The notes beneath the pieces are model-generated. The model did no database searches, was not told where the DNA came from, and was given only the letters and a program-made list of their open reading frames with translations. Source: a virus. From it: 30,214 bases of DNA. The stretch's first letter is position 1, and each line of letters begins with the position of its first letter. The stretch covers positions 1-30,214 of IMG/VR virus record IMGVR_UViG_3300042397_001621, one strand, 5' to 3'. Made by a program: the position numbers and the translations under genes. Shown here piece after piece: positions 1 to 20,199 of the stretch.

Positions 1-1211
1 CCTAAATCTGTCACACTTAAAGTATAAATCCCTGATGATAAATTTTCAAATCTCCAAACATTACTATTTATAATGTTTGTTGTAACATTACCGTTAGAAT
101 CCGTTAAAGTGTACGTATATGGTGGTGTCCCCCCTAATACTGTTATTGGTCCTAATATCCCTGACAAGTCATTACATTTTGAATTGGTTATATTAACAAA
201 CACGCTTGATATACCTGCAGGGGTTAATAATGTTGTCGATGAAGTTGCTTTACATAAACCAGCATCAGTTACTTCAACAGTAAACTCACCCGGTGATAAA
301 CTTGTGAAAATAACTGTTCTATCAAAAGTAACAATAGATTCACCATTAGAGGCTAAATAATAAAACGGTGCAGTACCATCTACGACTATTACAGTAACTT
401 CCCCATCACTCGTAAAACAACTTGGTTGAGTTACAAATAATGAACCGATTGACACCGGATTTACAACCGCAACGTCAGCACTTTTAGATACACCACAACC
501 ACTATTATCAGTGACTGTAACACTATATGTTCCAGCGGTTAATCCTGTTAATGAATCACCAATTTGACCATTTGACCATAAGTAAGTATATGGTGGGTTA
601 CCTGTTAAACCACTAATAAATATTTTACCTGAATTTGTTGTACAACCAGCATCATTAACTACAAATAAATCATAATTTATTGTTGTTGAGGTTTTTACAA
701 TACAAGTTTCTGACATACCCGTACATCCAGCACCATCATCAGCAATCACATAATATGTACCCGCACTTAATGATATAAATTCCGCAACATTTGAATAAGG
801 TGATAACGACTCGATAAAACCTAACGTATTTTCATATAACGAGAATGTAGCATTCCCATAAGAGTATGTTGTAGAGGCGGTTATTGACCCGTTATTCAAA
901 CCACATAAAGTATCTGTATGACTATCAATTGAAGTACAAGTACCGCTAGAAATTAAAAAATTTACAGGTAACACTGTATTTGGTGTACAACTATCAATTA
1001 TGTTGAATGTATAAGTTCCAGCACTTAAAAAAATCTTATTATACGTAGAAGTCCCCGATATATCAACTAAAGGTATTACATCATTTATTGGGGTAAGCCA
1101 TTGTATGGTATATGGGGGGGCATCCCCAAATATATCAAGAGTTACCCCTCCCGAAAAAGTGTTAGTACAATCACCTGTTATACTAATATTATATGTTATT
1201 TCACAAGCCAT
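1..1211 (-). CDS. SprB-repeat (Ig-like) tail/adhesin protein, 3' end outside the window
   Basis: The reading frame starts at ATG 1209-1211 (MACEITYNIS) and stays open to the left edge, giving 403 codons with no stop, so the C-terminus is missing. I read about five tandem beta-sandwich repeats of roughly 75-95 aa. Each has a PPYTYxWSNG-type element (for example near residues 31-38, 204-217 and 358-368) followed by an L(S/T)AGTYxVxVTDxxGC-type element. This pairing is the signature of the SprB repeat, known from the flavobacterial gliding adhesin SprB and other Bacteroidota surface proteins. It is the last visible gene of the baseplate operon, four bases after the wedge gene at 1216-4224. A role as distal tail fibre or host-surface-binding protein is inferred from position and fold. 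No signal peptide is seen, as expected for a virion protein. Repeat family is fairly sure; function is not. Confidence 0.8.
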   Translation of the reverse strand, partial: MACEITYNISITGDCTNTFSGGVTLDIFGDAPPYTIQWLTPINDVIPLVDISGTSTYNKIFLSAGTYTFNIIDSCTPNTVLPVNFLISSGTCTSIDSHTDTLCGLNNGSITASTTYSYGNATFSLYENTLGFIESLSPYSNVAEFISLSAGTYYVIADDGAGCTGMSETCIVKTSTTINYDLFVVNDAGCTTNSGKIFISGLTGNPPYTYLWSNGQIGDSLTGLTAGTYSVTVTDNSGCGVSKSADVAVVNPVSIGSLFVTQPSCFTSDGEVTVIVVDGTAPFYYLASNGESIVTFDRTVIFTSLSPGEFTVEVTDAGLCKATSSTTLLTPAGISSVFVNITNSKCNDLSGILGPITVLGGTPPYTYTLTDSNGNVTTNIINSNVWRFENLSSGIYTLSVTDL

Positions 1212-1215
1212 TTTA

Positions 1216-4200
1216 TTATGAGCAACTAATTGTAAAGTTTATTCCTACATCTATTTTTATATTCCATCCTAAGTCTTTATCCGCACAGTTTGTGTTAAAT
1301 ATTGTTACGGTCGTATAAGTCTCGTTAAAATAATAATCAAGCCCCCTTGTGAGTAAACCATTTAAAGAGTATCTTAACGATGTAACCCATTTTTCATTAG
1401 TTGGTGCACTAATTGTTGAATTTACACCTGAACCACTAAAAAACCAATCATTAATTATTAATGTATCATTAAAGATAACGTTAACATACCATTGTGAGTT
1501 CACACTAAAACTATCACAATTTATCAATTGATTGTTTGACACATAAGTGTTTATAACAGAATTAAGAACACCATTAAAATTAGAAACCTTACCACCAAAC
1601 GGATAAACCTCACATTCTTTTAATTGACGAGGACAATCATAATTATAGATTGTAGTTGTTAATTCACACGGTTTACAAGGAACCGGAACAAACTGACAAC
1701 CTCGTTGTCTTCTCCAAACAAATTTTTGTCTGTGGAAAATTGAATTTTCTAATTTAACCCCCGTATTCCAAATAGTACTTGCAGGTATCATTTGTTCTAC
1801 CAAACGAATCCAATAATCCCCCATACCATCCACGTATTGTGTCATAGTTTCATAGGTAAAGTTATCGTTAGCAATACCCGCAATATTTTCAGACTCTAAG
1901 TATCTCCAATAGATTGATTGTAATGTTGGATAACCACTCGTAGCACCATCTGTTGCAAATTGTCTATTTCTAACATTAATAGTATTTTTCCAAAATGTTT
2001 GAGCAAACTCAAAGAATGATTTATTCTTTGGTTGCGGATTAATAACCGTCCAATCAATATCACCTTTACTAGGGTATATAGACACAGGATTAGGGTCACA
2101 ATGAGTTGGTGGAACATAATTTAAACCTTCATTAGGTATTGGGTAATTAAATTGGTTTGACATATACCAAACATCATATAATAATCCTTGACCCGGATTT
2201 AAAAACAAGTCAACGTTTTTAACGTTAATTACTAAATTATCATTATCCGTATTATAGAATGAGTCAAGTCCACCATCAAAATTAGACCTAAGACCTACTT
2301 CAGTATCAACCCAACTTTTATTATTATCAACTACCGGTTTTAAATTAAACCCTAATGTTGTATAAGGTAATTGTCTATAAACATTTAAGAAATCTTGACC
2401 ATAACTAAATGGTGTTAATTTAGTTTGATAGTTAGGATTAGACCCTGTAAACACACTAGTTGTTAAATCAACTTGTTCTAGTGACCTATGTTTAGGTGTT
2501 GATTCAAACCAACCACTACCCATTTGAAAGAAATAAGAGTCCGTATTAACGGGTGATTTAGGATACCCTAAGTTATCTATAGGATAATCCGCAAGACTCA
2601 CATTTGAATCTGTTAATTGTGATGTTGTTGTAAAACCACTATATTCAATATTTTGAATTCTAAAAGTATATGATGGGTCTACAACAGGAACACTCTTTGA
2701 GTATGTACCTCCTGAGATGTTCGCAAATTGAGTATTGAACTCATTTAAATTAATTTTTTGGTCAGCTAAATAAACATACTCATTGAACTCAACTAAAGCA
2801 TCAGGAGCACCAATCATTCTCATTAATGTTTCAATAGATTTTCTAGTACCTTTTGATTTGAATAGGTAAGCAGAATTAAGAATTAAATTATTATAATAAT
2901 TATAATTCAACTCATCCGGAGTCTGAGATTGAGCGACACCAGTAAATGACGAAGTGTCACTATTTTTTTGCCCAAAAACAGAGTCTAAAAAACTATCATT
3001 CGATATTGGAGTAATGTTTGTCGCCCACCCTAATGTTTGAGCTAAATTTTTTAGTAATTGAGATGGTATATCATTTCCTGAATTATAATTTACAGAATTC
3101 ATATAAGCCAAAGCATTTATGAATTTTTTAGTTTCATCAAAACTTCTACCATATATTTGTAATACTTTTTGAATCTTTTGGTCTGTAGTATCAAATTCTC
3201 TAAACGAATCTGTTGTCAAAAATCTCGACACTAAATTTGTTTGATAACCATCAAAAGACGCACTAATATCGTTTAATGTAGTCAAATAAACTGTAAACGC
3301 ATTAGTTAAAATATCTAAATTCCAATTACCATATAAAGGCCAAGTAACATTTTCATTGTTAATATAATAAGCCCCGTCATCCGTTTCCATTGGAACTTGG
3401 AAAGTTGCTGTATATATTGGCGATATATTTCTATTCAATAAAAATCGTTGGACTTCGTCAAATTTAACACTAAACACCGCATTAACTTCGTGGTCATTTG
3501 GTCTAATAACTATATCATCAGTTGTACTTGTATTTCCGGAAAATGGATTACCCGTCACATAAATTGTAAGAGTACCTGAAGATGTTGTATTTGTCGGCAC
3601 AATCTGTACCACATTATATCCCATACCATTATAATATAACGAATACTTAGCGTATTGTGTCGTCATATTACGTAACTCAGAAACTTGTATTTCTCTCAAC
3701 TGTAGATTTCTAGTTGCATTAACTGAAAAATCAATATCAAATGGGTTTCTAATTCTATCAACAACTAAATCAAAACTAGTTTCCATTGTAATTGGATTAT
3801 AAACTATATTAGTTGCTGTATCACCCGTAGTATAATTTTCAGACATAAATGTCATTTCTAAAGCCGCGGGAAAATTACTAATAATAGTTTCAACCGATGT
3901 TGAAATCCTTTTAACCATTGACCCATATGTAGTAAAATTAGTAACTTGAGTTAAATCAAAATTAGGATAAACTTTAAAATTATTTTCAAAAATAGCCCTT
4001 GATTGGTCAACACTTGAAAGTCCTAATCCCTCTAAATTTACAGGACTTGAAAATGTTCCTGTTGTAAAAGTTCTATTAACCTTTTCGTTTAAGGCGGTGG
4101 TAAACTCAAAATTACCTTGCGTTAACCCTCCTCCAGCAACTAATTGGAATCCAACTAAGTTATCTGAAAAAGTACCCGCACCTGTTGCCGGTTGTGGTGG

Positions 4201-4224
4201 ACAAGTAAAATTTTGATTTGCCAT
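1216..4224 (-). CDS. Baseplate wedge protein, gp7 / P2 gpI-like (Tail_P2_I-type core)
   Basis: This 1002 aa protein has a core at about residues 340-480 that resembles the P2 gpI / T4 gp7 wedge family. Visible there are an FDETKKFINALAYM stretch, an LLKNLAQTLGW stretch, and the motif LFKSKGTRKSIETLMRMIGAP, the typical KGT-(x)n-G element of Tail_P2_I proteins. In contractile tails this subunit joins gp25/W and gp6/J in the wedge, and both partners are encoded upstream in the same operon. The N-terminal third looks like beta-rich structural sequence. Beyond about residue 835, after a basic RQKFVWRRQRG stretch, lies a Cys-rich segment (five Cys in about 35 residues, including CKPC) and a beta-rich C-terminal extension. 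The start ATG overlaps the preceding stop by one base (TAATG), suggesting translational coupling. Family assignment is by motif recall, not alignment. Confidence 0.7.
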   Translation of the reverse strand: MANQNFTCPPQPATGAGTFSDNLVGFQLVAGGGLTQGNFEFTTALNEKVNRTFTTGTFSSPVNLEGLGLSSVDQSRAIFENNFKVYPNFDLTQVTNFTTYGSMVKRISTSVETIISNFPAALEMTFMSENYTTGDTATNIVYNPITMETSFDLVVDRIRNPFDIDFSVNATRNLQLREIQVSELRNMTTQYAKYSLYYNGMGYNVVQIVPTNTTSSGTLTIYVTGNPFSGNTSTTDDIVIRPNDHEVNAVFSVKFDEVQRFLLNRNISPIYTATFQVPMETDDGAYYINNENVTWPLYGNWNLDILTNAFTVYLTTLNDISASFDGYQTNLVSRFLTTDSFREFDTTDQKIQKVLQIYGRSFDETKKFINALAYMNSVNYNSGNDIPSQLLKNLAQTLGWATNITPISNDSFLDSVFGQKNSDTSSFTGVAQSQTPDELNYNYYNNLILNSAYLFKSKGTRKSIETLMRMIGAPDALVEFNEYVYLADQKINLNEFNTQFANISGGTYSKSVPVVDPSYTFRIQNIEYSGFTTTSQLTDSNVSLADYPIDNLGYPKSPVNTDSYFFQMGSGWFESTPKHRSLEQVDLTTSVFTGSNPNYQTKLTPFSYGQDFLNVYRQLPYTTLGFNLKPVVDNNKSWVDTEVGLRSNFDGGLDSFYNTDNDNLVINVKNVDLFLNPGQGLLYDVWYMSNQFNYPIPNEGLNYVPPTHCDPNPVSIYPSKGDIDWTVINPQPKNKSFFEFAQTFWKNTINVRNRQFATDGATSGYPTLQSIYWRYLESENIAGIANDNFTYETMTQYVDGMGDYWIRLVEQMIPASTIWNTGVKLENSIFHRQKFVWRRQRGCQFVPVPCKPCELTTTIYNYDCPRQLKECEVYPFGGKVSNFNGVLNSVINTYVSNNQLINCDSFSVNSQWYVNVIFNDTLIINDWFFSGSGVNSTISAPTNEKWVTSLRYSLNGLLTRGLDYYFNETYTTVTIFNTNCADKDLGWNIKIDVGINFTISCS

Positions 4225-5132
4225 TATTGTGTTATATTTGTAAAGTTTTTACTAAAATCAATATTATTTCCTCTATCTTGTCTAACTTCATATAATAAAC
4301 TATTAAATTGGTCTCTAATTTCGTATAAGTTGTATTGTTTGTAAATATTATTACTTGTATCGTATAGAGTATAGATACCATCATCAATTGATTTAGTTTG
4401 ATTACCATAAAGAGCAATTGCTAATGTCGAAATATCGTGTTCTGCAATTTCAATATCTAAACTTATTGGATTAAAGAAAGTATTTGTAATTATAATATTT
4501 TGATTTGGCTGTCCAATATAAGGAGTCGCGTTTGGATTATTTGTTGGTGCAGAAGATGGTGATACTGTACAAAACAATAAATTAGTATTGTTGTTAGTAT
4601 AACGATATCTAATCGCTTTTTGTGATGAGTTTGTTAAATTTTGAACAACAGGTTCACAAAAGAATGATGATGTTATTATTCTAAAAAAATTAGGTATTTT
4701 TGTACCATCTGAATTTAAATATTCAATTCTGAATCCAACTAAACCTTGACTAACAAATTTGTTTCTATAGTTTGACGGAACCGAATTTAAATCAATCACT
4801 AAACCTTTAACATTAGGTAATGAAGATAACACCCCACAATCCAATATAGTGGTTCTAATTTGAGCCGGTCTAAGAAATAAGGTATATATACCAATTTTAT
4901 TAAATTGTTCCGCAGGTAGTCTTAAATTGTATAACCCTCCTAAAATTTCAATATTAGAGTTAACCCCTGTAGTATCATTATTGTAGTAAGGTGTTAATAC
5001 AGATAACGCATCCAATTTTGTTAAAACAAAGTTGTTTGTTTCATCTCTTGTTGGAGTATAATTTAATATTATCTCTACATCTTCCGGACTTACGTCTGCC
5101 GGTCTTATCGTTCCATAGGTTCCTGTTGCCAT
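4224..5132 (-). CDS. Unrecognised baseplate/tail structural protein (302 aa)
   Basis: I do not recognise this protein. It is 302 aa, rich in Asn, Thr and Ile, has no signal peptide or membrane segment, and looks beta-rich. A conspicuous central stretch, KGLVIDLNSVPSNYRNKF (about residues 110-127), reads like an ordered fold rather than linker. The C-terminus is charged and possibly helical (EIRDQFNSLLYEVRQDRG). It lies between the PKD-domain protein and the gp7-like wedge gene, one base after the former's stop and overlapping the latter's start by one base. It is therefore very probably co-translated with baseplate components, and a baseplate or tail-fibre connector role is inferred from that context only. 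Confidence 0.6.
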   Translation of the reverse strand: MATGTYGTIRPADVSPEDVEIILNYTPTRDETNNFVLTKLDALSVLTPYYNNDTTGVNSNIEILGGLYNLRLPAEQFNKIGIYTLFLRPAQIRTTILDCGVLSSLPNVKGLVIDLNSVPSNYRNKFVSQGLVGFRIEYLNSDGTKIPNFFRIITSSFFCEPVVQNLTNSSQKAIRYRYTNNNTNLLFCTVSPSSAPTNNPNATPYIGQPNQNIIITNTFFNPISLDIEIAEHDISTLAIALYGNQTKSIDDGIYTLYDTSNNIYKQYNLYEIRDQFNSLLYEVRQDRGNNIDFSKNFTNITQ

Positions 5133-5133
5133 C

Positions 5134-6318
5134 TTATGTTGTTGCGTTAATTATGTTAAAAAATTTATATCCGTACTTTTCTAAGCTACCGATACTGTTA
5201 ACCTCACCAAGTCTTTCAATACTCTCTAAGGCTGAGTTCTTCCCCCGTTCTATAAATACATTGCTTTGCACTTCTGCTTCATCAATTATCCCTAATAATA
5301 GTTCATTTTTTACAATTGGTTGACAAATTACTGTATCAGTGGTTAATCCTGATGATTCAGCAATAAAAAGTGTAGTACCGTTATTATAATCATAGTAGGT
5401 AATATCATTAATTGTATAGGCAGTGTATAACCCTCCATCAAACACCCCTAAATATCTACCAATAAACCCTGTGTTTCCGGTTATATCATAAGTAGTTACC
5501 GAATAAGGTGTGGGACCATATTGTTTTAAATCAGTTAATGATGATGTTGTATACCCCGTAATTAAAAAAGGTACTGTTGTAAATTGAGTTATATCTTGAG
5601 TTGTTGAATCGCAATTACTATCACCACTGAATATATATTCATAAGGTACTAATATACCATCCCAATTACCACCCATAGGGGTAAAAAAGGCATCACCATT
5701 AGGGTTATCGATTGTTGTTCCTGTAAATGGAAGGTGTACTGTTTTAGTAATTGTGTTTGTTCCCCAAGGGCTAAGACCTGTTAATGTAATCTGAGTTTCA
5801 CCTGTTACCGTATAATCGTGATGTATTTGAGCGGTTGATGTTATAGGTTCAGGTAACGAACCATCCCCCCAATCAACCTTATATGTTGAAAACTGTAAGT
5901 ATTTCTTAAATTCAACATCTGATGTATTATAAAAATAAACTCTTTGGGGTTCTAAAGTCGTTGCGGAAAATAAAAAATTCAACATAGTGTCTTTTTGTAC
6001 AACCATACCGTCAAATATCGAATAATATCCAATATCAACCGTATTTTCTGTAAGTAGAATAGGAACCGTTAAACCCGTTAATAATGAGTCATATTGTGTG
6101 GTACCTGTATTGTACGTACCTCCCGATAACACTTCAGTCATTGCGGAATAGGCATACGTTGAACCTGTTACTTTTATTTCAATCATTTTTGATTGAAGGA
6201 CACAACATTCCTTAGAATATGATGTTCCCGTAATAGTGGCTCCATTATAATTAACTTTAAATATATCCCCACTAATCACACCAGGCGAAATCTTTATACT
6301 ATAATTTTTATCTATCAT
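5134..6318 (-). CDS. PKD-like domain tail structural protein (394 aa)
   Basis: The protein is 394 aa. At about residues 125-200 it carries a PKD-type Ig fold: the diagnostic VDWGDGS element, then a histidine-containing IHHDYTVTG strand and an ITLTGLS strand, matching the usual WGDG...H-Y...G pattern. PKD domains occur in extracellular adhesins and polysaccharide-degrading proteins, and in phage tails they usually act as spacers or host contacts. The rest is Thr/Gly-rich and beta-rich with many YxxTxYDITGxTG-like strands. The C-terminal 40 residues are charged and possibly helical (NVFIERGKNSALESIERLG). It starts two bases after the upstream stop, without a Shine-Dalgarno sequence. An accessory baseplate or fibre role is inferred from operon position. 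Confidence 0.65.
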   Translation of the reverse strand: MIDKNYSIKISPGVISGDIFKVNYNGATITGTSYSKECCVLQSKMIEIKVTGSTYAYSAMTEVLSGGTYNTGTTQYDSLLTGLTVPILLTENTVDIGYYSIFDGMVVQKDTMLNFLFSATTLEPQRVYFYNTSDVEFKKYLQFSTYKVDWGDGSLPEPITSTAQIHHDYTVTGETQITLTGLSPWGTNTITKTVHLPFTGTTIDNPNGDAFFTPMGGNWDGILVPYEYIFSGDSNCDSTTQDITQFTTVPFLITGYTTSSLTDLKQYGPTPYSVTTYDITGNTGFIGRYLGVFDGGLYTAYTINDITYYDYNNGTTLFIAESSGLTTDTVICQPIVKNELLLGIIDEAEVQSNVFIERGKNSALESIERLGEVNSIGSLEKYGYKFFNIINATT

Positions 6319-6320
6319 AA

Positions 6321-7205
6321 TTAAGGGTTAATATATTCATACCATTTTATGGAACTTGTATCTCCAATTCTATTACCACCATTATTAAATATTTTATATG
6401 TATAATTAGAGTAATCTAACACAACTTTATAATAAAAATAATTTTCAGGTACAAATTGGAATAATGACGGAACTAACGGTAATACTTGAGGTGTTGTCAT
6501 CATTTTAACAAAAATACCTAATCTAGCATCAAAAAACTTAGCCGTCATATAAAAAGTTTCAGTAGTATTTGTTGGGTCAGGATTGATATTTAAAAAATTC
6601 TTTTTCCTTAACCAATATAAAAAGAACCCTTCCTTATCCCCAACATAATCCAATTTAAATGATGGTATTTTAATGTTAACCGGAGGTTTAGATGTTGATG
6701 TTAATCCCGTAACAGTATATCCTTGTTGTACGGGTATAATTACACTAAAATAATTAGTCTGAGTTGTTGCCGATGTACTATCATAAAAATCCAATTTAAA
6801 AAACGATTTTGTAAAAGGTTTTATATAATAATAAATTTCTTTAGTTGTAAAACCTTCAGGTATATAACTTATCTTCCAATCTGACGCAACCGCAGTTGTA
6901 ATATCCAAAGACGGGTTTGGTGGGACTGTTGGTTGTAAAACACCATTATCATCAGGTAATAACACACTAAAAAAATGGAAATCATATTTAACGTCAGTTT
7001 TAGTATCACTACTATACGGTGCGTGAGCAAATCTTAAAATCTCAAAATCATCCGCAACACCGGTAACTCTTTCAACAGCGTATTGTTGATATTCATTAAC
7101 AGCATCTGTTCTACCTAAGAAATCCCATTTGATTTCCACGGGTAGATTAATATATTTGTCATCACCTTTCGGTAGCGTAAATTTAAACTTATTATTCACA
7201 TTCAT
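6321..7205 (-). CDS. Unrecognised tail structural protein (294 aa)
   Basis: I do not recognise this protein. The open frame extends upstream to an ATG at 7256, but that would overlap the previous gene by 65 bases. I prefer the ATG at 7203-7205 (MNVNNKFKFTLPKGDD), which gives a 14-base overlap and a well-ordered N-terminus. The product is then 294 aa, aromatic-rich and beta-rich (for example ENYFYYKVVLDYSNYTYKIF near the C-terminus). It has no membrane segment and no signal peptide. Its place among baseplate genes suggests a virion component. The overlap with the upstream gene and the two-base gap to the downstream gene imply translational coupling. Confidence 0.6.
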   Translation of the reverse strand: MNVNNKFKFTLPKGDDKYINLPVEIKWDFLGRTDAVNEYQQYAVERVTGVADDFEILRFAHAPYSSDTKTDVKYDFHFFSVLLPDDNGVLQPTVPPNPSLDITTAVASDWKISYIPEGFTTKEIYYYIKPFTKSFFKLDFYDSTSATTQTNYFSVIIPVQQGYTVTGLTSTSKPPVNIKIPSFKLDYVGDKEGFFLYWLRKKNFLNINPDPTNTTETFYMTAKFFDARLGIFVKMMTTPQVLPLVPSLFQFVPENYFYYKVVLDYSNYTYKIFNNGGNRIGDTSSIKWYEYINP

Positions 7206-9039
7206 CGTTTTTAGGTTCAGCAGCACCATAAAGTGTTGCATAATAGTATCTATCACTCTCTTTATAAGTAGTTCCTTCCGGTATTATTCTAAAAATAAAA
7301 TTACCATAAGGATAATGAGTACCATTTAAAAATGGGTAATCAACACCGTTAAGTTCAGCGTCTTTAAATCCATACTCATATATGTCTCTCCATATAAATG
7401 AATTATAAGTTGTTGAGAAATACGAGTAATCAGGTATATCTACAGTATTTCTAACATCACCAGTTTCAATATAATCAGAAAAAACTCTAAGTGTTAGTTT
7501 TCTATGTGGTTGATAATAATAACCATATCTACCCACAGTATTATTATTTTGATTTAAAACATTTGGTACTTGGAAAACATCATCGTTATATGTAATTTTA
7601 TGATAATTTTCACTCAACAATCTTTCTTTTTGTTCAAAATTATTCCATTCATAAAAACCACCGTCTATTGTATCCCCACTTTTAAGTGTCCTAACATAGT
7701 TAAATTGAATTGTACCAGGTGTTGTCGCATTATAATTAGGCCCCACATAATTATCAATAGGGATACTTGTTATGTTTGATAAAGAGTTCTTCCACCAAGT
7801 ATTTGGAGCTAATGAAACCCTTAAAGGTAAATTAAACTCATAACCCTGTTTTAATTTGGTAACAGTATTACCCACAGTACTAAACATTAACCCAAAATAT
7901 CCTTTCCACACAGTCGTAACAAATAATTCACTAATAGGTCTTTTATGATTATCCCTTAATGGTTTAACATCAATATCTCTATTAAAAGATAATGAATAAG
8001 ATTTAGCACCCTCTTTAACTGAAACACGACTAATTTTATTAGGTGTATATGCCGAACTTTCGTATTTTTTATTATCACCAAAAACATTTTGTTCAAACCC
8101 CGCATTGGTTAAGACGCAATCATCAACATCTGTAATTATTTTATGTCTTAAAACATAATACTCTGACATAGTATCTTCAGCGTTTTCATTATTAATTATC
8201 CGTTTAAAATTACCAAAATCATCATTACTAAATATTGCCGTACTAAATCCAATATTATATATATTAAAAATATATTCATCATAATCAGGTAACCCATTTC
8301 CTAATGAATAAACTTGGAAAGTGTCTTCAAAACCGTTAAATTTATTTTTAATTTTAGCGTATTCACCAACAGATAATCCGTGTTTAATTGGACATTTAAA
8401 TTGAATAATTCTGTTACCATTCATCATTAAATCATTACCATTAGTATCACTAATACTTAAAATAAATGGAATTCCTTCCGACGCAAGGAATTGATTGGTC
8501 GTTGAGGATGCCTCGTCATTAAAAAATAATCTTTTACCCGGTAAGTTTAAATAAGGATAACTAATAAAATGATTCCAATTATAAGTGGAGGCATTTTTAG
8601 TCACAAAATTAACGTGAACCATACCATTACTATCCGGTGTAGTATAACCTGAAGTATTATAATCATTCCTTATAAAATCAAATTCATTATATTGAGGATA
8701 CCCTTCCCACAGTACAGCGTCAGGATTTGTTCGACATTCATTAATAGTATTTGTTGTTGAGTTTGTATAATATAATGTATTCTCTAATGGGGTGTAATTA
8801 CAACGACCAGAATACGCATTATCAAATAATAATACAAATTTACACACAGGTCTAAAAACTGTTGATTTTTCTCTCTCATCGACAAATAATTGAGCTAAAT
8901 TAATATCAATACTTCTATCAAATTCCTGAACCGTTTTTGCTGTTTGAACCAATGGTGTTGGTATTGATAAATTAGTATTTGTCGCCGTTTTATAACGTAA
9001 TGAACCTAAAACTATCCTTATGTCGTCTCTATTACCCAT
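7192..9039 (-). CDS. Unrecognised large tail/baseplate structural protein (615 aa)
   Basis: The protein is 615 aa with an ATG start one base after the stop of the 1777 aa gene (TAA-T-ATG). It is rich in Tyr, Phe and Asn with many short beta-strand-like stretches and no membrane helices. The N-terminal 60 residues are partly helical and charged (AKTVQEFDRSIDINLAQLF, then VDEREK), which could be a docking region. The remainder contains aromatic runs typical of phage adhesion or fibre proteins, such as YGYYYQPHRKLTLRVF and FIWRDIYEYGFKD. No family is recognised. A receptor-contacting or baseplate-peripheral role is inferred from composition and operon position only. Confidence 0.6.
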   Translation of the reverse strand: MGNRDDIRIVLGSLRYKTATNTNLSIPTPLVQTAKTVQEFDRSIDINLAQLFVDEREKSTVFRPVCKFVLLFDNAYSGRCNYTPLENTLYYTNSTTNTINECRTNPDAVLWEGYPQYNEFDFIRNDYNTSGYTTPDSNGMVHVNFVTKNASTYNWNHFISYPYLNLPGKRLFFNDEASSTTNQFLASEGIPFILSISDTNGNDLMMNGNRIIQFKCPIKHGLSVGEYAKIKNKFNGFEDTFQVYSLGNGLPDYDEYIFNIYNIGFSTAIFSNDDFGNFKRIINNENAEDTMSEYYVLRHKIITDVDDCVLTNAGFEQNVFGDNKKYESSAYTPNKISRVSVKEGAKSYSLSFNRDIDVKPLRDNHKRPISELFVTTVWKGYFGLMFSTVGNTVTKLKQGYEFNLPLRVSLAPNTWWKNSLSNITSIPIDNYVGPNYNATTPGTIQFNYVRTLKSGDTIDGGFYEWNNFEQKERLLSENYHKITYNDDVFQVPNVLNQNNNTVGRYGYYYQPHRKLTLRVFSDYIETGDVRNTVDIPDYSYFSTTYNSFIWRDIYEYGFKDAELNGVDYPFLNGTHYPYGNFIFRIIPEGTTYKESDRYYYATLYGAAEPKNDECE

Positions 9040-9040
9040 A

Positions 9041-12000
9041 TTAATTTACTATAATTTCTGTATTAATCCATTTACCTTTAAATCTATCAAAAGATGACGC
9101 CCCTCGTTTTAACCCAAAATAAAAATGGAATGGTGCTCCAACAGTAACTAACTGTTTATCAATAGTTTGTGTATTTTGCGACCAAGCCGATGTTGCAGCA
9201 ATTAAATCACCAGCACCATCCACCGCATAGATAAAACCTTTATCATCAAGAATGGTAATCCCATAATTTCTAAAATATCTTGAGTTAGCTTCTAATCTAT
9301 CTAATGATTGATATTTAGACGAATATATATAACCTGCATCCCCCTCGTCAACCCACTCATTTCCATCCGTTCCAAAAATACTTGAACCATTTTCTATCTT
9401 CCATTGTGATAACGGTACTTCTTGAGAATAGATTGGGAAATTACTAAATGAACACCCTTGATTACTAATTAAACCTGTTGGGTCAATTATAGTTCTCTTT
9501 GGTGTAAGAAAATCTCTAGTTTGAGTATCCGACGAAAAGAAAATCCCGATTAAACCATCACACCCAATATATATTGGACTTTGTTTTGGTGAAGGTTCGT
9601 CCGGATAATTTGTCGATTGAAACGCCGCAACACCTAATTCAGAACTAATAGATATTAATTGAGAGTAATCCGAATCAAACTTTAAATTAGTTCTTGTGTT
9701 AAAATATTGTAAAATATTTAAACCAAGTAAATTCTCTAAAAAATCATTATCTAAAAATCGACTAATAATAAATAAATTAAGTATCTCATCTACGTGAGAA
9801 AAAGTGGATGAATCCAATTTATTAACAATATACCCGTCATATTCATCAGACATTACAATTTCTTGTAAAAAATTACTTCTTGGACCTAAATCCATTATTG
9901 TTGTAGGATATTTAATGGATTTAGTAAATTGTTTACTATCACCATCATAACCCGTACATCGGTAATAAAAGTTTCGACTACTCGTGTGTCGAATAACAAC
10001 TTCTGTTGGATATCGGAATATAGGTGCGTTTGGAGTACTAGATGTCGGGGATGAAAAACCAATTGTGTCATTTTTAAATGACATAACATATAAATTACCA
10101 TTAACCCAATTATTGCTAAATGTATGTGAAAAAACATTTCTACAAGCACCTAACATAACCATATTTCTAGCAATCCATTCTGACATTAAAGCCCAATCAT
10201 TTATTAAAGAAAGAAATACAACTGTAACAAATTTATAACATCCTTTACTAAATATTGTTTTACCCAAAAATCTAGATTTACTACGGTCTATGGTGATTAC
10301 GGCATTATTTGCACCATTACGGGGAAGACATTGTTTACCATAACACTCTAAGTTTGCAGAACCATTACACGTAAATGTTGTGAATAACGCATTAATATTT
10401 TTTTGATTTTTTAAGTCCTCTGAATTATCTTGACTAACACCTGAACCCACCGTTCCTGTTGAACCTACTGTTGACGTAATTCCCACAACACCCTTATCAG
10501 GTATTATATAAGCCTGTAGGTTGTAATTTTTTTGTAATACCCAAGAATTACAACAAAATTCTAACGGTACTGTTGAGGTCGGTAATCTATCTCCTCTCAT
10601 TATTTTTACTTTACCTGAAGAACCAGTACTAAAATTTAAAGTATTTCCCGTTGTATCATATGTTGGTGAAAAATAATAAGTTTGTATTGTTGCCTCCATA
10701 GGTAGTACATCGTCAATTCTAACCCCACGTAGTTTATGGTTAGCATTCCACCCTCCACATTGAGCCCTTCTTCTATAACACGTATGCTTAGCTCTAGAGA
10801 AGTATCCTATCATTGCCATTATTGAACTTCCTTCAACAATCTCTAGAGGTAGATATCCTTGAGCATTATTTGATAAAGTATAAGGGGTCCCAAATCTAAG
10901 ATAAAATATATCACCTACATCGTTACAATTTTGACACGCACCTTCCAATTTGTCACTCGATTTTATTGTTTCTATGTTTTTTGTAAAATTATTTTGTGAA
11001 GAAACAGATATTCCTAATGTAGAATTTGTTTTAGCGACTAAAACATTATTTACCTTAGGATTAGACGTAGTACCAGCATTTATACAACCAGGTGTAAAAG
11101 AACCCGACCTATTATCTAACGATGAATAATAACTAATTAAATTAGAATTAAACCCGGAATAACCTGCCGATAGTAATACATTAGGTGTTGTGATTATTGT
11201 TGTCATATCATCACTATACCCTGTAACAGAACCTAAAACATCATTTGCTTGTGGAGTAAATAAATATGAATCATAATACAACTTATTATTAGTATAAGCA
11301 TCAGTACCAAGAGCGTCTCCGGTTGTAACACCATCTATTGTACTTGAGGGATAATCCGTTTTTGAATGACTAATATTTAAAAACCCTTTTTGAATAGGTA
11401 TATTCATTCTACATTTAGTTGATACTTTAATATCGTCTTCATTAGGAAATCCAAAAAGTTTACCTAACCCATATTCAATATCAATTTTATCCGTATAGGG
11501 GTCAACACCTCTATTTAATATAATTACACCTATAGACGCATTATTCTTAATCGAATCTATTGGTCTTAAATAATAGGATATTGGGTCAGAAGAACCATTA
11601 TCAGTGTCATTATTATACATAATATTATGTAATGTAGTCACATTTCTAATATATCTCTCATTCAATGACCCCGCTATTGGTGTAGTACTACACATTGAGG
11701 TAAATGCACTATACGTCATTCCAGTAATTACTTGGAAATATTCAATATCTGTTGGGAATCGATAAAGTTCATTATACTTAGTATTACCTGTTAGACTAAC
11801 ATTATAAGTTGAATTGGGTCCTGAAACAGTTGAATTACCGTCAAAACTAGCATAAGATACCGGCACCGTTATTGTTCCCGTAGATGTAGTCCCTGTTAAT
11901 GGACGAACTAAACCAGTTGTTCCCGTAATCGCATAATTACCCGCATAATTAAGAATTGTACTATTAATATTCGGGTCTTTACTAAATGTTGGGTTTTGAA

Positions 12001-14374
12001 AAGAAATCATTTGACCTGACACATATTTTTTAAGTGTCGCCTTATCACAAAGAATTACAATAGTATTATCATAATGTTTCTTTCCGGGATTACTTTGTGG
12101 TTGATAGGTTACTCTAACTCTATTTACACCACCACCAGGATTATTTGACCCTCCATCAAAATATTTTGCCTTAACATTAAATAAATTAATTCTATCAGCT
12201 ATCGGTAGTCCTGTTGTTATCCAAGTATATGAAGGAAGACCTTGTTGGGTAGATGGATAAGGAACCCCATATCCAGGATTTCCTGTTTCTCCATCAAAAT
12301 ATCTACCTGTAAATTCATAATTAATAGCGAATCGTCTTGCTGTACTTAAAGGATAACTATAATTAGATGAATTATACGTTGTTGTCGCCGTTTTTGGTAT
12401 TTTCCAAGGACCTAACGTAGATACTAATAAAATAGGTGTACCTATACTAAGTGCCGATTTTGATAACTCATCTTTTGTTATTGTTGGACAAGGAACAATA
12501 TCTTCATTACCCGAACTTAAATCTTTATCACCCCCATCTTCATCCGGATTTTCATCAACAGGGTCTCCTTGTTTACAATCACACATATTACAATCAGGGT
12601 ACGTTAATATAGGTACCGCAATACCACTTAAATTAATCTTGAATAATTGGAGAAGAATATAAACACACAATGCTGCAAACAATAAGTAAGTCGCTCCTAA
12701 TAGTAATTGACCCGGAATGGTAACAACCCCTAATCCAACCCCAACAGACGCCGCAAAATGTTGTATAGAAACTATAAAATAATAAACAGCAAGGAATCCG
12801 AAAAATAATCTTAATATCCATACAATAAAATAAACGATATGTAAAAGAAGTATTATTGCATAAAATATTGGTGTTAATATTATACTTAAAAATGAAAATA
12901 ACACATAAAAGAAATCAAACCTAAAATAACCGTCATTTGTTGGATATCGGTTATTTTCACTTTCACACACATCATCCAATATGTTTTTAATACCTGTAAA
13001 TCTTTGATATGAACCTCTTCTATATTCATCAATAAATTGTGAAACAGTATAAACTTTATTATATTGCATCATATAAAATCTATCTTTACAATCAATAGCT
13101 TCTTGTATCATTTCCGGATAACTAGTATCATCCCCATAATCATCCCAATTAAGACTAAACGCATATGATTTTTGTTGGAGTTGTGGGTCACCAGTTTCAC
13201 CCCAATCTTTAATATTTGGGACTAAATAATTAGCTCTTTTAGTTGATGCTGAGGCCGATGGAGATTGGGACCATTTAATTTTAAATCTATACTTACCTTT
13301 TGTTGGAACCCCTTTTTCTGGGTCAGGAGATAATACCTGCTCCCCAAATTCATTAGTTATGTAATAATCCAAATTCATTGGGACATCTATCATCCAAGTA
13401 CCATTTTCATCAATAATTGTTCCTCCACCTTCTAAACCATATGATTCCAAAATAGGTCTTCCAATCGAATCTTCCTGCATTGTTTGCCTAATTGCCAATA
13501 TTTCACCCGGACCTGTTATTACATTACATAAAAAACCAGAACCTCTTGTTGGTCTATTATTCGCTCTAATTGCATTACTATCAGAATCTGAAATCATTGA
13601 CCCCATAAAAATAGCTGTAGGTTGTATATTAATATTCGCCTCTCCCGTTAAATCAAAATCTGTTCTAGTAATACCTAAATTACATATCTCAGGTTGTCCC
13701 CATAAAGGTTCAATTTCTATAGTTCTATTAAAACTAACAATTTGAGGTAATTCCCTCAAATTAGTTGAAGCCCTAAACTTGGTACCGTCAACTTGATTTT
13801 CAGTTGCTCTACCCATTCTAATTAAATCCTGAGGTGATAACGAAAATTCACCAATATCAGATAAATCAATATCAACAAAAATAGTGTGAGAACCAACAGG
13901 AACCCCAAAAATCATATAATCACCACTTTGATTAGTTACCGCGTTATATTTAAAATATTTGTCGTAAATTTCACCAAGAACAGGACTTAATAATACGTCT
14001 CTACGAGTAAAAAAAGTACCGGTTGGTATATGAGCACTATATGAAGGTTTATAAGGTAATAGATTATACCTATAACCATCATCATTAACATCATACAAGT
14101 TACTGTACGGATAAATGTTAGATATTACCGGGTCATCTTTATCAATTGAATCTAATGGAATGAAAACGGATACTTTAGCATTTGGGATACCAAAACCATT
14201 ATTTACACTGACTCTACCAACAACAACACCGTAATCGGCACATTGTCGTGTGTAGATATCACTTTGAAGGATTTTTAAGGATAGAATTTCTAAATACTCG
14301 AACTCTTGGTCAATCATCACCTTTAATGAGGTGTCTACACCGACTTGAGTTCTTATTCTATAAGAATTTGACAT
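9041..14374 (-). CDS. Giant virion-type protein with carboxypeptidase-regulatory-like domain and multi-span hydrophobic region (1777 aa)
   Basis: The protein is 1777 aa and has an ATG start. Residues about 47-180 look like a CarboxypepD_reg (transthyretin-like) beta-sandwich: VVGRVSVNNGFGIPNAKVSV, an insertion, then TNQSGDYMIFGVPVGSHTI. Such domains are abundant in Bacteroidota envelope proteins. Residues about 485-580 are almost uninterruptedly hydrophobic, enough for three or four membrane helices (FYVLFSFLSIILTPIFYAII, HIVYFIVWILRLFFGFLAVY, TYLLFAALCVYILLQLF). This is followed by a Cys cluster (CNMCDC) and an acidic linker. More Cys-rich patches occur in the second half (CYRRRAQCGGW, CYGKQC). 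It lies directly after gp6, so it belongs to the baseplate operon. I infer a tail-tip or baseplate component that may contact or enter the host membrane. The gene is certain; the function is not. Confidence 0.75.
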   Translation of the reverse strand: MSNSYRIRTQVGVDTSLKVMIDQEFEYLEILSLKILQSDIYTRQCADYGVVVGRVSVNNGFGIPNAKVSVFIPLDSIDKDDPVISNIYPYSNLYDVNDDGYRYNLLPYKPSYSAHIPTGTFFTRRDVLLSPVLGEIYDKYFKYNAVTNQSGDYMIFGVPVGSHTIFVDIDLSDIGEFSLSPQDLIRMGRATENQVDGTKFRASTNLRELPQIVSFNRTIEIEPLWGQPEICNLGITRTDFDLTGEANINIQPTAIFMGSMISDSDSNAIRANNRPTRGSGFLCNVITGPGEILAIRQTMQEDSIGRPILESYGLEGGGTIIDENGTWMIDVPMNLDYYITNEFGEQVLSPDPEKGVPTKGKYRFKIKWSQSPSASASTKRANYLVPNIKDWGETGDPQLQQKSYAFSLNWDDYGDDTSYPEMIQEAIDCKDRFYMMQYNKVYTVSQFIDEYRRGSYQRFTGIKNILDDVCESENNRYPTNDGYFRFDFFYVLFSFLSIILTPIFYAIILLLHIVYFIVWILRLFFGFLAVYYFIVSIQHFAASVGVGLGVVTIPGQLLLGATYLLFAALCVYILLQLFKINLSGIAVPILTYPDCNMCDCKQGDPVDENPDEDGGDKDLSSGNEDIVPCPTITKDELSKSALSIGTPILLVSTLGPWKIPKTATTTYNSSNYSYPLSTARRFAINYEFTGRYFDGETGNPGYGVPYPSTQQGLPSYTWITTGLPIADRINLFNVKAKYFDGGSNNPGGGVNRVRVTYQPQSNPGKKHYDNTIVILCDKATLKKYVSGQMISFQNPTFSKDPNINSTILNYAGNYAITGTTGLVRPLTGTTSTGTITVPVSYASFDGNSTVSGPNSTYNVSLTGNTKYNELYRFPTDIEYFQVITGMTYSAFTSMCSTTPIAGSLNERYIRNVTTLHNIMYNNDTDNGSSDPISYYLRPIDSIKNNASIGVIILNRGVDPYTDKIDIEYGLGKLFGFPNEDDIKVSTKCRMNIPIQKGFLNISHSKTDYPSSTIDGVTTGDALGTDAYTNNKLYYDSYLFTPQANDVLGSVTGYSDDMTTIITTPNVLLSAGYSGFNSNLISYYSSLDNRSGSFTPGCINAGTTSNPKVNNVLVAKTNSTLGISVSSQNNFTKNIETIKSSDKLEGACQNCNDVGDIFYLRFGTPYTLSNNAQGYLPLEIVEGSSIMAMIGYFSRAKHTCYRRRAQCGGWNANHKLRGVRIDDVLPMEATIQTYYFSPTYDTTGNTLNFSTGSSGKVKIMRGDRLPTSTVPLEFCCNSWVLQKNYNLQAYIIPDKGVVGITSTVGSTGTVGSGVSQDNSEDLKNQKNINALFTTFTCNGSANLECYGKQCLPRNGANNAVITIDRSKSRFLGKTIFSKGCYKFVTVVFLSLINDWALMSEWIARNMVMLGACRNVFSHTFSNNWVNGNLYVMSFKNDTIGFSSPTSSTPNAPIFRYPTEVVIRHTSSRNFYYRCTGYDGDSKQFTKSIKYPTTIMDLGPRSNFLQEIVMSDEYDGYIVNKLDSSTFSHVDEILNLFIISRFLDNDFLENLLGLNILQYFNTRTNLKFDSDYSQLISISSELGVAAFQSTNYPDEPSPKQSPIYIGCDGLIGIFFSSDTQTRDFLTPKRTIIDPTGLISNQGCSFSNFPIYSQEVPLSQWKIENGSSIFGTDGNEWVDEGDAGYIYSSKYQSLDRLEANSRYFRNYGITILDDKGFIYAVDGAGDLIAATSAWSQNTQTIDKQLVTVGAPFHFYFGLKRGASSFDRFKGKWINTEIIVN

Positions 14375-14446: not shown

Positions 14447-16285
14447 TTATGAGAAATTAACTGTTTTAAGATTTTTAACTCTAATATTGATATCTTTGTT
14501 AGAATATCTAATTTGATAACTCTGAGTTGGTTCCGCATAAATTGTTTCATCAATCAACTCAATTTGTCTTGTTGTTGGGTCTGAATATCTTTGAGATGTT
14601 TGAGATGATGAATATTGTCCACCAACATTATTAAAAAATTGTACATCTGAAATTGTAATAACCCCATTTTCATTTTGTAACAATCTTTTTAAATCAGATA
14701 CGTTAACATTTTGACCCATTTGTCTGTTTGACGGACTAAAATAGTCAGAAACTACAGTTATTAACTGAGATATAACAGTACCTTGATTTTGAGAGTTATC
14801 CAATACAACGTCAACGTTTACACTTAAATCAATTACATTAGCACTTTGAACTGAAACGTAATCATTAATCATTCTATAATTTGAAAGGTAATTAGCAACA
14901 TTACTTTTTAACGTATTTGAAACAACTTCCGTTAATGCTCCCGATTCATCATATGATAACATTTGAATAATAATTTTATTATTTTGTTCAGTAATAGCAA
15001 CTTTAGCTGGTGCTCCGTATTGTGACGGCATTGTTCTAATAATTGATTCATAATCATTAACAGTTACCGCTCTATTTTGTGCGGAAAAATTATAAGAAAC
15101 CATATTTCTCACTTCTTCCGTTGTTGGAAAGTCTGCCCCACCAATTGCCGCTGTAACATTTGAACATCTCAATGAATTAACAACCGTTGTATTAATACTT
15201 TCTGACGGTCCATTAACAAAAAAGGAAACTGTACCAACTTGCGTGATTGTATCAACACCTAAGTTACTTCCGGTACCACCACCAACTCTGTATTGAACAA
15301 ATAGTGTAGTGTTTGCCTTTAGAGTACTACCTAACCCTAAATTATTTGAGTATTTGTTTAGGTTTAACATAAATCCGTTTGCCGCGAATTCTCTTAATTG
15401 TTCATCTGCGGATTGATTACCTCCACCGAATGTCATTTTTAAGAATCCTTCAGGCGTAAATTCAGAAATAAACTTATTACTTGTCTGAATATATCTCCCA
15501 ACTTTAATTCCCGGAGAATCAGATACTTTTGTTGGGTCTTCAACGAAGACTCTGTCTTGAGCTAAAGCTTGAACTTCATACCATTTATTATCTGTTCCTA
15601 AAAATTCTTGTGATGATGGTACGTTAGTATATTGAGTCCCATCTTTTAATAAAACTCCGGTGATTCCTAACACATTTTTTTCTGGTAAGAATAATTCATA
15701 AAAAGGTTTAACATCATTAGGTGTTATAACTTTTTTAAATACTTTAGTCAAACCATTAACAACGGTTTCTCGTTTAGTAATTGTGTAATTAAGTATTCTA
15801 TTATTTGAATCAAAATTTGGGATTTTCAATCTATTTGGGAACCCATCAGCATTAGTTGGTGACGCAAAATCAATTTCATAAACCGTTTCAAAAACTTGTC
15901 CCGCTCCGTTAAATTGAGAACCTCTTCTTAATACCCCACAGTAACTTAAATCTTCTTTATCCCCATAAGCCGGTACTGTAATTGAGAAATCAATTAACGC
16001 AACTGACGGTCTCATTCCCGGTATTTTTAATCCATAAGTTTTTGCAATATTATATACTGACGACCTTTGTTGAGCGTATTGTAACACAGTCTCCTGAACA
16101 CTTCTATCAATATTAAATTGTAAGTTATCCGTTACCGCAGCATTTAGGTCTAATAAAACCGAAAATACCGATGCGTCATTAAAATTCTGAACAGTTTCAG
16201 GATAATAAGTTTTAGTAAAATTTATAAGTTCCGTTCTGATTGATTGGAAATCTCTTGTTGTGTATGAAATCTTTTTATTAGCCAT
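14447..16285 (-). CDS. gp6: Baseplate wedge protein gp6 (Baseplate_J family)
   Basis: This 612 aa protein matches the T4 gp6 / P2 gpJ family. The N-terminus (ISYTTRDFQSIRTELINFTK, then ETVQNFNDASVFSVLLDLNA) is typical of T4-type gp6. At about residues 385-445 is the Baseplate_J signature: an AIGGADFPTTEEVRNMVSYN stretch, then NRAVTVNDYESIIRTMPSQYG. gp6 dimers form the continuous inner ring of the wedge and contact gp25 and gp7, encoded just upstream and downstream. Length is close to T4 gp6 (about 660 aa). It starts four bases after the gp25 stop, with no Shine-Dalgarno sequence. The C-terminal third (DVVLDNSQNQGTVISQL onward) looks like the usual ferredoxin-like wedge domains. Confidence 0.92.
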   Translation of the reverse strand: MANKKISYTTRDFQSIRTELINFTKTYYPETVQNFNDASVFSVLLDLNAAVTDNLQFNIDRSVQETVLQYAQQRSSVYNIAKTYGLKIPGMRPSVALIDFSITVPAYGDKEDLSYCGVLRRGSQFNGAGQVFETVYEIDFASPTNADGFPNRLKIPNFDSNNRILNYTITKRETVVNGLTKVFKKVITPNDVKPFYELFLPEKNVLGITGVLLKDGTQYTNVPSSQEFLGTDNKWYEVQALAQDRVFVEDPTKVSDSPGIKVGRYIQTSNKFISEFTPEGFLKMTFGGGNQSADEQLREFAANGFMLNLNKYSNNLGLGSTLKANTTLFVQYRVGGGTGSNLGVDTITQVGTVSFFVNGPSESINTTVVNSLRCSNVTAAIGGADFPTTEEVRNMVSYNFSAQNRAVTVNDYESIIRTMPSQYGAPAKVAITEQNNKIIIQMLSYDESGALTEVVSNTLKSNVANYLSNYRMINDYVSVQSANVIDLSVNVDVVLDNSQNQGTVISQLITVVSDYFSPSNRQMGQNVNVSDLKRLLQNENGVITISDVQFFNNVGGQYSSSQTSQRYSDPTTRQIELIDETIYAEPTQSYQIRYSNKDINIRVKNLKTVNFS

Positions 16286-16289
16286 AATA

Positions 16290-16748
16290 TTATATATTAA
16301 TTATTACAAAATCGCTAGTATTAAAAACATCATCTGTGATGATATAATCAATCCTAACTTTAGCGGTATGTTCTAATTGACCAATACCAGGTACTCTAAA
16401 AACTCTATCGTTTTCACCATTAATATAAGACCCTTTATCTTCTTGTCCATCAGATGCCGCAGTTACACTAATATTAGTAAGTTTTAAATTTGGCATATAC
16501 AAATCAACAGCGTCACGTATTTCAGATTCTATTTGTGAAAATGTAGGTGTATCTAATGGGTCAAAAAGAAATTCATATAATCTTGTCCCAAAATCAGGTA
16601 AATAATATCTTGAACCTTTCCTTGTTAGTAAAAGATGTATTAAATTGTTTCTAATTTCTTTTTCGGTCGTACTAGATAAATCTAAATATTTCCCATCAAA
16701 AGAATCTCTGAAAGGAAAAGTTAACCCGTATGTTGTTCCATCTGCCAT
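16290..16748 (-). CDS. gp25: Baseplate wedge protein gp25 (GPW/gp25 family)
   Basis: The family core is clear: IRNNLIHLLLTRKGSRYYLP, then DFGTRLYEFLFDP and a conserved helix. The TRKGSR...P(D/E)FG element is the hallmark of GPW/gp25 proteins, the most conserved contractile wedge subunit. gp25 sits at the sheath-baseplate junction and nucleates sheath polymerisation. I place the start at ATG 16746-16748 (MADGTTYGLTFPFRDS), giving 152 aa. The frame is open back to a TTG at 16791-16793, but that would use a rare start lying next to the terminator of the upstream operon. gp25 is the first gene of the tail operon, four bases before gp6, and probably has its own promoter in 16749-16832. Confidence 0.92.
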   Translation of the reverse strand: MADGTTYGLTFPFRDSFDGKYLDLSSTTEKEIRNNLIHLLLTRKGSRYYLPDFGTRLYEFLFDPLDTPTFSQIESEIRDAVDLYMPNLKLTNISVTAASDGQEDKGSYINGENDRVFRVPGIGQLEHTAKVRIDYIITDDVFNTSDFVIINI

Positions 16749-16779
16749 AACTATAAATATAGTGTCGTCATTATTTTTT

Positions 16780-16786
16780 ATAAATA
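16780..16786 (-). promoter_or_regulatory. Candidate TATTTAT promoter box upstream of gp25
   Basis: Read on the minus strand this is GTATTTATAAAAAATAAT, about 30 bases before the preferred gp25 ATG and just past the nrdA terminator, where a new transcript must begin. The same box occurs in three other gene leaders in the window. It could serve as a -10-like or phage late element. The sequence is A/T-rich, so chance occurrence is a real possibility. Confidence 0.3.
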
Positions 16787-16790
16787 CCCC

Positions 16791-16823
16791 CAAAATAAAA
16801 AATCACGACCTAAGCCGTGATTT
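16791..16823 (-). terminator. Rho-independent terminator after nrdA
   Basis: The stem AAATCACG/CGTGATTT (16800-16807 with 16816-16823) has an eight-base loop. On the minus strand it is followed by a T-rich run (TTTATTTT). It begins ten bases after the nrdA stop and separates the replication/nucleotide operon from the tail operon. Confidence 0.8.
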
Positions 16824-19247: not shown

Positions 19248-19248
19248 A

Positions 19249-20199
19249 TTAAAAATCGTCTGTAAATGTTAATGACTCCCCTAATTTGGCCTTTTGATAC
19301 TCCATTGTTCTTGATTCAAAGAAATTACCCTTTGTTTCAACAGCAATCTGTTCCATAAATTTAAATGGTTGTTCCACATTAAAGTGTTTTTTACAACCAA
19401 ACTTAACCAATAATCCGTCGGTAACAAATTCAAGATATTGTTTCATCAAGTTTGAATTCATACCAATTAAAGACACAGGTAATGATTCAGTGATAAATTC
19501 TTTTTCAATCTCTAAAGCAGATAGTAAGATTTCTTTAATTCTTTTTTCTGTTGGTTTGTTCTCAACGTGATTGTTAATCAGATGAATAGCAAAATCACAA
19601 TGTAAGTTCTCATCTTTGAAGATTAATGAATTAGCGTTACACAATCCTTGCATAATTCCTCTTGATTTCATCCAAAAGATAGAACAGAATGACCCTGAGA
19701 AGAAGATACCTTCAACCGCAGCAAATGCCACTAATCTTTCTTGAAAAGAAGAATTCTCAATCCAATCAAGAGCCCATTTAGCTTTCTTTTGAACTGCCGG
19801 TAATCTATCAATAGCGTGGAAACATTCATCTTTCTCTTTATCATCAGACACATAAGTATCAATCAACAATGAATACATTAACGAGTGAATGTTCTCCATC
19901 ATAATTTGGAATCCGTAAAAGAACTTTGCTTCAGCATATTGAACCTCTTTTAAGAAATTCTCAGCCAAGTTTTCATTTACAATACCATCAGACGCTGCGA
20001 AGAACGCTAATATATTTTTAAGGAAATATCTTTCATTATCAGATAGGTTTTCCCAATCTCTAATATCGTTAGATAAATCTACTTCTTCTGCCGTCCAAAA
20101 AGCAGCTTGATGTTGTTTGTAAAATTCCCATATATCATTATGTTCAATAGGGAAGATAACAAATCGGTCATTATTTGGTTCTAATATTTTTTCTTTCAT
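19249..20199 (-). CDS. nrdB: Ribonucleoside-diphosphate reductase, small (beta, R2) subunit
   Basis: The 316 aa protein is a ferritin-like radical-generating subunit. All expected diiron ligands are visible: D41 (WTAEEVDL), E102 and H105 (MENIH), E163 (AVEGIFF), E197 and H200 (DENLH). The radical tyrosine is Y109, four residues after H105. The C-terminal tail ending LTFTDDF is the typical peptide that docks into NrdA. Several runs ([40 protein letters not shown]) match vertebrate R2 nearly word for word as I recall it. This is therefore the eukaryote-like R2 subtype, not the E. coli type. It lies one base after the helicase stop and one base before nrdA. Confidence 0.97.

Follow-up and report, generated by a model that had tools for sequence, protein, structure and literature searches.

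A SprB-repeat protein of the baseplate operon in uncultured Bacteroidota myoviruses, a probable adhesion-fibre shaft

The window, meaning the whole stretch of DNA analysed here, is a linear virus record of 30,214 bp with all of its main genes on the minus strand. Read along that strand, a tail/baseplate block runs from the gp25- and gp6-like genes through five genes of 1777, 615, 311, 394 and 302 codons to ORF2 and ORF1, so that gp6 and gp25 stand at the opposite end of the operon from ORF1. ORF1 starts at an ATG at position 1211, four bases past the stop of ORF2, and is truncated at base 3 by the left edge of the window. The block and the repeats in the visible part of ORF1 are laid out as follows (window coordinates).

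3..1211, minus strand: ORF1, N-terminal 403 codons of a SprB-repeat rod protein (complete gene, 1,048 aa, L011:13014-16160)
933..1211, minus strand: repeat R1, N-terminal and divergent; its HMM matches R6 (3.2e-07) and R7 (4.5e-06)
681..932, minus strand: repeat R2, divergent; Cys103/Cys163 invariant
456..680, minus strand: repeat R3, 26.9 bits; Cys190/Cys239 invariant
213..455, minus strand: repeat R4; Cys265/Cys320 invariant
3..212, minus strand: repeat R5, cut at the window edge; complete in L011 (334-418), with Cys346/Cys406
1216..4224, minus strand: ORF2, 1,002 aa, invariant upstream partner of ORF1 across a 4-bp gap
1219..1632, minus strand: ORF2 C-terminal domain, homologous to 597-709 of full-length ORF1; the two are a proposed docking pair
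4224..14374, minus strand: five genes (302, 394, 311, 615 and 1777 aa) of unrecognised family, in the same block and collinear with ORF2 and ORF1
14447..16285, minus strand: gp6-like baseplate wedge protein (Baseplate_J)
16290..16793, minus strand: gp25-like baseplate wedge protein

The complete ORF1 gene was obtained by the leftward extension that an earlier note on this DNA had proposed, from a contig (L011) that is 99.993% identical to the window over 14,224 bp and extends beyond its edge. That note had counted five tandem repeats; five are present in the window, but the complete gene has seven, followed by an alpha/beta domain, a Pro/Thr linker and a tip. Domain limits were drawn from an alignment of 43 relatives, per-repeat HMMs and an AlphaFold model (residues of full-length ORF1).

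1-571: seven beta-sandwich repeats (basis: alignment, per-repeat HMMs and AlphaFold model)
597-709: alpha/beta C-terminal domain
about 720-840: Pro/Thr-rich linker
after the linker: distal tip of ~200 aa

The Pfam family PF13573 takes its name from SprB. By hmmscan, the window part of ORF1 matches this family at 60.4 bits (E 1.3e-16; cut-off 28) and the full-length protein at 75.3 bits against the same cut-off; SprB is the sole Pfam family to pass, with Y_Y_Y, SdrD_B, PKD and BiPBP_C all below their own cut-offs. A genome search with SprB gave four separate sites (E 3e-5 to 3e-8). The claim of SprB-type repeats is borne out, including the preference for SprB over generic Ig-like families, and both quoted sequence elements, PPYTYxWSNG and LSAGTYxVxVTDxxGC, are found in the window repeats: PPYTYLWSNG and LTAGTYSVTVTDNSGCG in R3, PPYTY in R5, and LSAGTY in R1 and R2. 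R3 is the most SprB-like and best conserved repeat (mean pairwise identity 56%), and R4 matches SprB above cut-off at 342-434 (29.3 bits). HMMs of single repeats match other repeats with E values down to 3.6e-16, compared with at most 16 bits across 1,600 shuffled control segments, which indicates that the repeats are mutually homologous, well above chance. These matches support membership of the SprB repeat family, beyond a generic Ig-like fold. The Cys pairs of repeats 2-5 listed above are invariant in the alignment of relatives and may form disulfides.

The AlphaFold model of ORF1 is a seven-domain beta-sandwich protein (pLDDT 81, pTM 0.31) in which R1 too is a beta-sandwich. The domains are dependably predicted, but their placement relative to each other is unreliable because pTM is 0.31. 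The best solved structures for the model are those of GhpA, the grappling hook protein of Aureispira (Saprospiraceae; 9flp, E 2.7e-18, 9fly and 9flw), a Bacteroidota surface filament that is likewise a string of similar beta-sandwich domains. Unlike ORF1, GhpA is cellular and 5,898 aa long, and with 14-18% identity and low TM-scores (0.2) the likeness is at the domain level only.

Bacterial relatives of repeats 3-4 belong to Bacteroidota in 9/9 loci, with identities of 26-46% (26-37% in 8/9), and the HMM of phage R3 reaches 57.6 bits in a Saprospiraceae protein. NrdA of the window is closest to those of Cellulophaga and Tenacibaculum phages (38-41%, 552-583 bits), the next-closest isolates standing at 28.7% and 315 bits. 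Bacteroidota, the phylum to which the earlier note had pointed, is well supported as host by these comparisons, and we read the viruses as a large, freshwater, Bacteroidota-infecting group.

What membership of this repeat family says about function is a separate matter. SprB of Flavobacterium johnsoniae, the gliding adhesin with which ORF1 shares PF13573, has a mass of 669 kDa, is a T9SS substrate of type B and is anchored by SprF (PMC9143113); ORF1, unlike it, has about 1,048 aa, a fixed seven repeats and a place in a phage tail operon, and its neighbours in the window and in the loci of relatives are phage genes. Across 148 Bacteroidota genomes, SprB repeats occur in 31/36 of those with a clear GldJ (E below 1e-30, our own threshold) vs 5/112 of the others (Fisher p 1.5e-21); the repeat is a good marker of T9SS/gliding lineages. 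It is no marker of a gliding adhesin, because each of four Bacteroidota genomes has 21-132 matches to PF13573, spread across many long proteins.

The window part of ORF1 has no hydrophobic segment, N-terminal or internal, by hydropathy, and by the same measure its N-terminus (MACEITYNISITGDC) has none resembling a signal peptide. No T9SS sorting domain was found above cut-off in the full-length protein: TIGR04131 is absent, and Por_Secre_tail scores 13.6 bits (cut-off 23) at a place inside repeat R5. The search is able to see such a domain, since it detected the one of a megaphage protein used as positive control. The two absences fit a virion part assembled in the cytoplasm.

The control protein, encoded by the 642-kb megaphage LR756502.1 (L181:19379-24388), is a SprB-repeat protein of 1,670 aa and about 17 repeats; its N-terminus looks like a signal peptide, and it has a sorting domain of T9SS type B (TIGR04131 50.1 bits vs 35). 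Its gene lies away from any recognised relative of the window tail genes. The T9SS of the infected cell could display this host-style adhesin.

The earlier note had envisaged a captured gliding-adhesin module, and in its full form this proposal makes ORF1 SprB itself, working through the host by cell display, by binding the gliding machinery or by mimicking the host surface. Family membership and the co-occurrence of SprB repeats with GldJ speak for such a capture, but the missing secretion signals, the fixed repeat number, the location in a baseplate operon, the low identity to bacterial repeats and a phage-specific C-terminal domain, which occurs in none of the bacterial loci with related repeats, make it very improbable. 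The reading of ORF1 as a gliding adhesin proper was rejected for the lack of signal peptide and sorting domain, given the positive control. The ORF1 repeats are proposed instead to come from the pool on which secreted proteins of Bacteroidota draw.

Scanned once with ORF1, viral contigs yielded 417 confirmed relatives, 80 of which were kept. All of these loci (80/80) have an ORF2 homologue immediately upstream of ORF1, and the part from the 1777-aa gene to ORF2 is collinear on one strand in 75/75 relatives with about 10 kb upstream, a set that overlaps the first in part. ORF1 was found in 73 of these 75 loci, the exceptions (L037 and L075) ending at or within ORF2. Placement in the tail/baseplate operon, as first claimed, is confirmed, and ORF1 sits inside this block in every readable relative. 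The description of the virus as T4-type holds for its gp25/gp6/UvsX/SSB content, but no T4 relative was detected for most of the genes that lie between gp6 and ORF1. When profiles of ORF1, ORF2 and their neighbours, leaving out the 1,777-aa gene, were compared with T4 gp6-gp14, wac and Hoc and P2 W/J/I/H, nothing significant emerged, and neither T4 gp12 nor the H fibre of P2 showed detectable homology to ORF1; the test had little power, its gp6 control scoring only 2%. A P2 gpI-like identity for ORF2 found no support in the same low-power comparison. The 1,777-aa protein (window 9041-14374) has four to five hydrophobic segments clustered at residues 486-590, which is unusual in a virion protein; T4 gp7, likewise following gp6, carries a predicted membrane domain in its annotation.

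A position at the end of a wedge-to-fibre operon also recalls neck or collar whiskers, Ig-like fibres at the head-tail junction that steer other fibres or sense the environment. In T4, wac comes last, behind 6-7-8-9-10-11-12, at the same operon end as ORF1; the wac product of Enterobacter phage EC-F2 (Pseudotevenvirus), encoded downstream of a tail fibre gene, has SprB-like Ig domains; and a PDB relative of ORF1 by profile, 9occ, is a putative neck whisker protein (E 4.7e-4). EC-F2 differs from the window virus in its enterobacterial host, and its wac has about 36% identity to the SprB consensus over a short stretch only. ORF1 itself gave no profile match to T4 wac (low power), no gp13/gp14 neck genes are recognised adjoining it, and its C-terminal domain is common to ORF2 and not to any known neck protein, so a whisker role appears unlikely. 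Ig domains in wac proteins of Pseudotevenvirus and related enterobacterial phages match the SprB consensus at E 1e-3 to 6e-5 (L182:6432-8462).

ORF2 has no Pfam, PHROG or NCBIfam match; its model is poor (mean pLDDT 51), and a PDB structure search with it returned nothing below E 0.001. Its C-terminal domain aligns with that of ORF1 by hhalign at a probability of 96.1 (E 3.5e-9), compared with 0.2-0.3% and no significance for controls, and two independent models give both domains the same H-E-E-H-E-E-E order. A domain shared by adjacent genes would most simply reflect duplication together with a common or mutual binding site. Gene order suggests that ORF2 may be the baseplate attachment site for ORF1.

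The layout of ORF1 resembles that of T4 Hoc, a monomeric Ig-like string with an alpha/beta C-terminal domain that binds the capsid (PMC10385173), and weak PHROG Hoc matches (E 9e-8) point the same way. These matches span the Ig repeats only, and hhalign of the ORF1 C-terminal domain with T4 Hoc, a single-sequence target of low power, gave 0.4% probability. Hoc occupies the capsid, unlike ORF1, which always lies within the tail block; the variable part of Hoc is its Ig string and the conserved part its C-terminal domain, the opposite of ORF1, whose Ig rod is conserved better than its C-terminal domain. A Hoc-like capsid decoration is accordingly a weaker proposal than a neck whisker, and we hold it to be highly unlikely.

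Among 47 non-redundant relatives, the ORF1 core measures 707-734 aa, so the repeat number is constant at seven, which rules out that variability arises by tandem expansion. Past the core, the extension ranges from 3 to 695 aa; a Pro/Thr linker follows the core in 27/47 by strict count, and 15/47 have at most 50 aa there, a few of these being truncated at a contig end. In 28 close pairs, chosen for sharing at least about 87% identity in ORF2, the median falls from 90% in ORF2 to 83% in the ORF1 core and 58% in the tip (tip boundaries drawn by a simple Pro/Thr rule), the tip being lower than the core in 26/28; in one pair (L042/L030) the tips are unrelated at 92% ORF2 identity. Tail fibres usually have a conserved base and an exchanged end. 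The identity gradient and variable tips make a fibre, the role earlier suggested, the best reading of ORF1.

The region downstream of ORF1 differs among loci. In the clade of the window the next genes lie on the opposite strand and encode a 199-aa protein with a RuvC-like motif, an 804-aa protein and a 444-aa protein with one further SprB-like repeat; elsewhere, a glycosyltransferase-like gene of 325 aa or large repeat proteins follow on the same strand. Many relatives with short extensions have separate downstream genes instead, including ORFs of 98-100 aa and about 1,000 aa. ORF1 could on this account be an arm or spacer of the baseplate that serves structure alone and takes no part in receptor binding, with recognition left to proteins of the downstream module; the short-extension relatives agree with this, but most relatives carry long, fast-evolving tips in the same polypeptide, and we consider such a division of labour improbable, somewhat more so than a whisker. 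The shaft reading is nonetheless weakened by the 15/47 relatives with at most 50 aa behind the core, since not every member of the family has a tip in the same polypeptide.

Several further features of the downstream module were recorded. Roughly one locus in three encodes, immediately behind ORF1 or in its vicinity, a 320-330 aa glycosyltransferase-like protein with a DxD-type motif (HDADIIF) and no Pfam match (L042:16591-17568 and equivalents). Glycosylation of fibres and action on the host are possible roles for it, and its association with the Pro/Thr linker is inconsistent across loci. Additional SprB-like repeats occur in downstream-module proteins at L011:19231-20565 (minus strand), L042:17595-18983 and L061:17301-17669. 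Two large proteins adjoining a tip-less ORF1 (L073:15592-18378 and 18391-19611) are packed with SGGxxNTSS / TVGGG repeats, which look like the head repeats of trimeric adhesins. In most loci of sufficient length the variable module has at or close to its end a 199-206 aa RuvC-like protein (VLGLDVSTKTIGWALF) without a Pfam match, found at L011:16189-16788 (minus strand) and in many relatives.

Phage fibres and decorations with Ig-like repeats are already known. BACON and PKD Ig-like adhesins are found in gut Bacteroidota phages, crAss-like and Flandersviridae-like (PMC13370021, PMC6949934); like ORF1, they are Bacteroidota-type Ig-like repeats near phage structural genes, but they belong to other repeat families and other phages and have shown epithelium binding, whereas ORF1 has SprB repeats and a C-terminal domain shared with its neighbour. 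The database protein A0A6J5LD72, automatically named 'SprB repeat [uncultured Caudovirales phage]' (UniProt/BFVD, 714 aa), matches the whole ORF1 core (34%, E 8.4e-58) and is a core-only member of the same family, too short for the Pro/Thr linker and tip; we found no function, context or literature for it. A search of open-access papers gave no description of SprB repeats in a phage tail protein. The architecture of the ORF1 family, with its fixed seven-repeat rod, neighbour-shared domain and exchangeable tips, seems to be undescribed.

ORF1 is probably a virion protein of a myovirus that infects Bacteroidota, forming the shaft of a baseplate-borne adhesion fibre. Seven SprB-family Ig-like domains, mostly with a conserved Cys-Cys pair, would form a rod of fixed length, and the alpha/beta domain (597-709) would dock on the baseplate, the simplest partner for this contact being its homologue at the C-terminus of ORF2. 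In most relatives (27/47, strict count) the Pro/Thr-rich linker would hold an exchangeable tip that faces the host surface and presumably binds the receptor; in the others the tip would be missing, or perhaps encoded by separate genes just downstream. The repeats would now act as a structural spacer, possibly with some weak binding of their own. There is a slim chance that the rod also interacts with the moving adhesin layer of the host (SprB-family filaments or the SprF/GldK track), and if so, gliding adhesins would serve as first receptor or carry the phage along the cell.

Relatives of ORF1 constitute a large family, probably of adhesion fibres, in uncultured myoviruses of Bacteroidota, and they offer three handles: a fixed SprB-type shaft, a putative docking domain shared with the neighbouring gene, and exchangeable tips, whose sequences could be tied to host range. 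SprB-family repeats are apparently common to Bacteroidota and their phages, and therefore an automatic 'SprB repeat' name in a phage is no sign of gliding.
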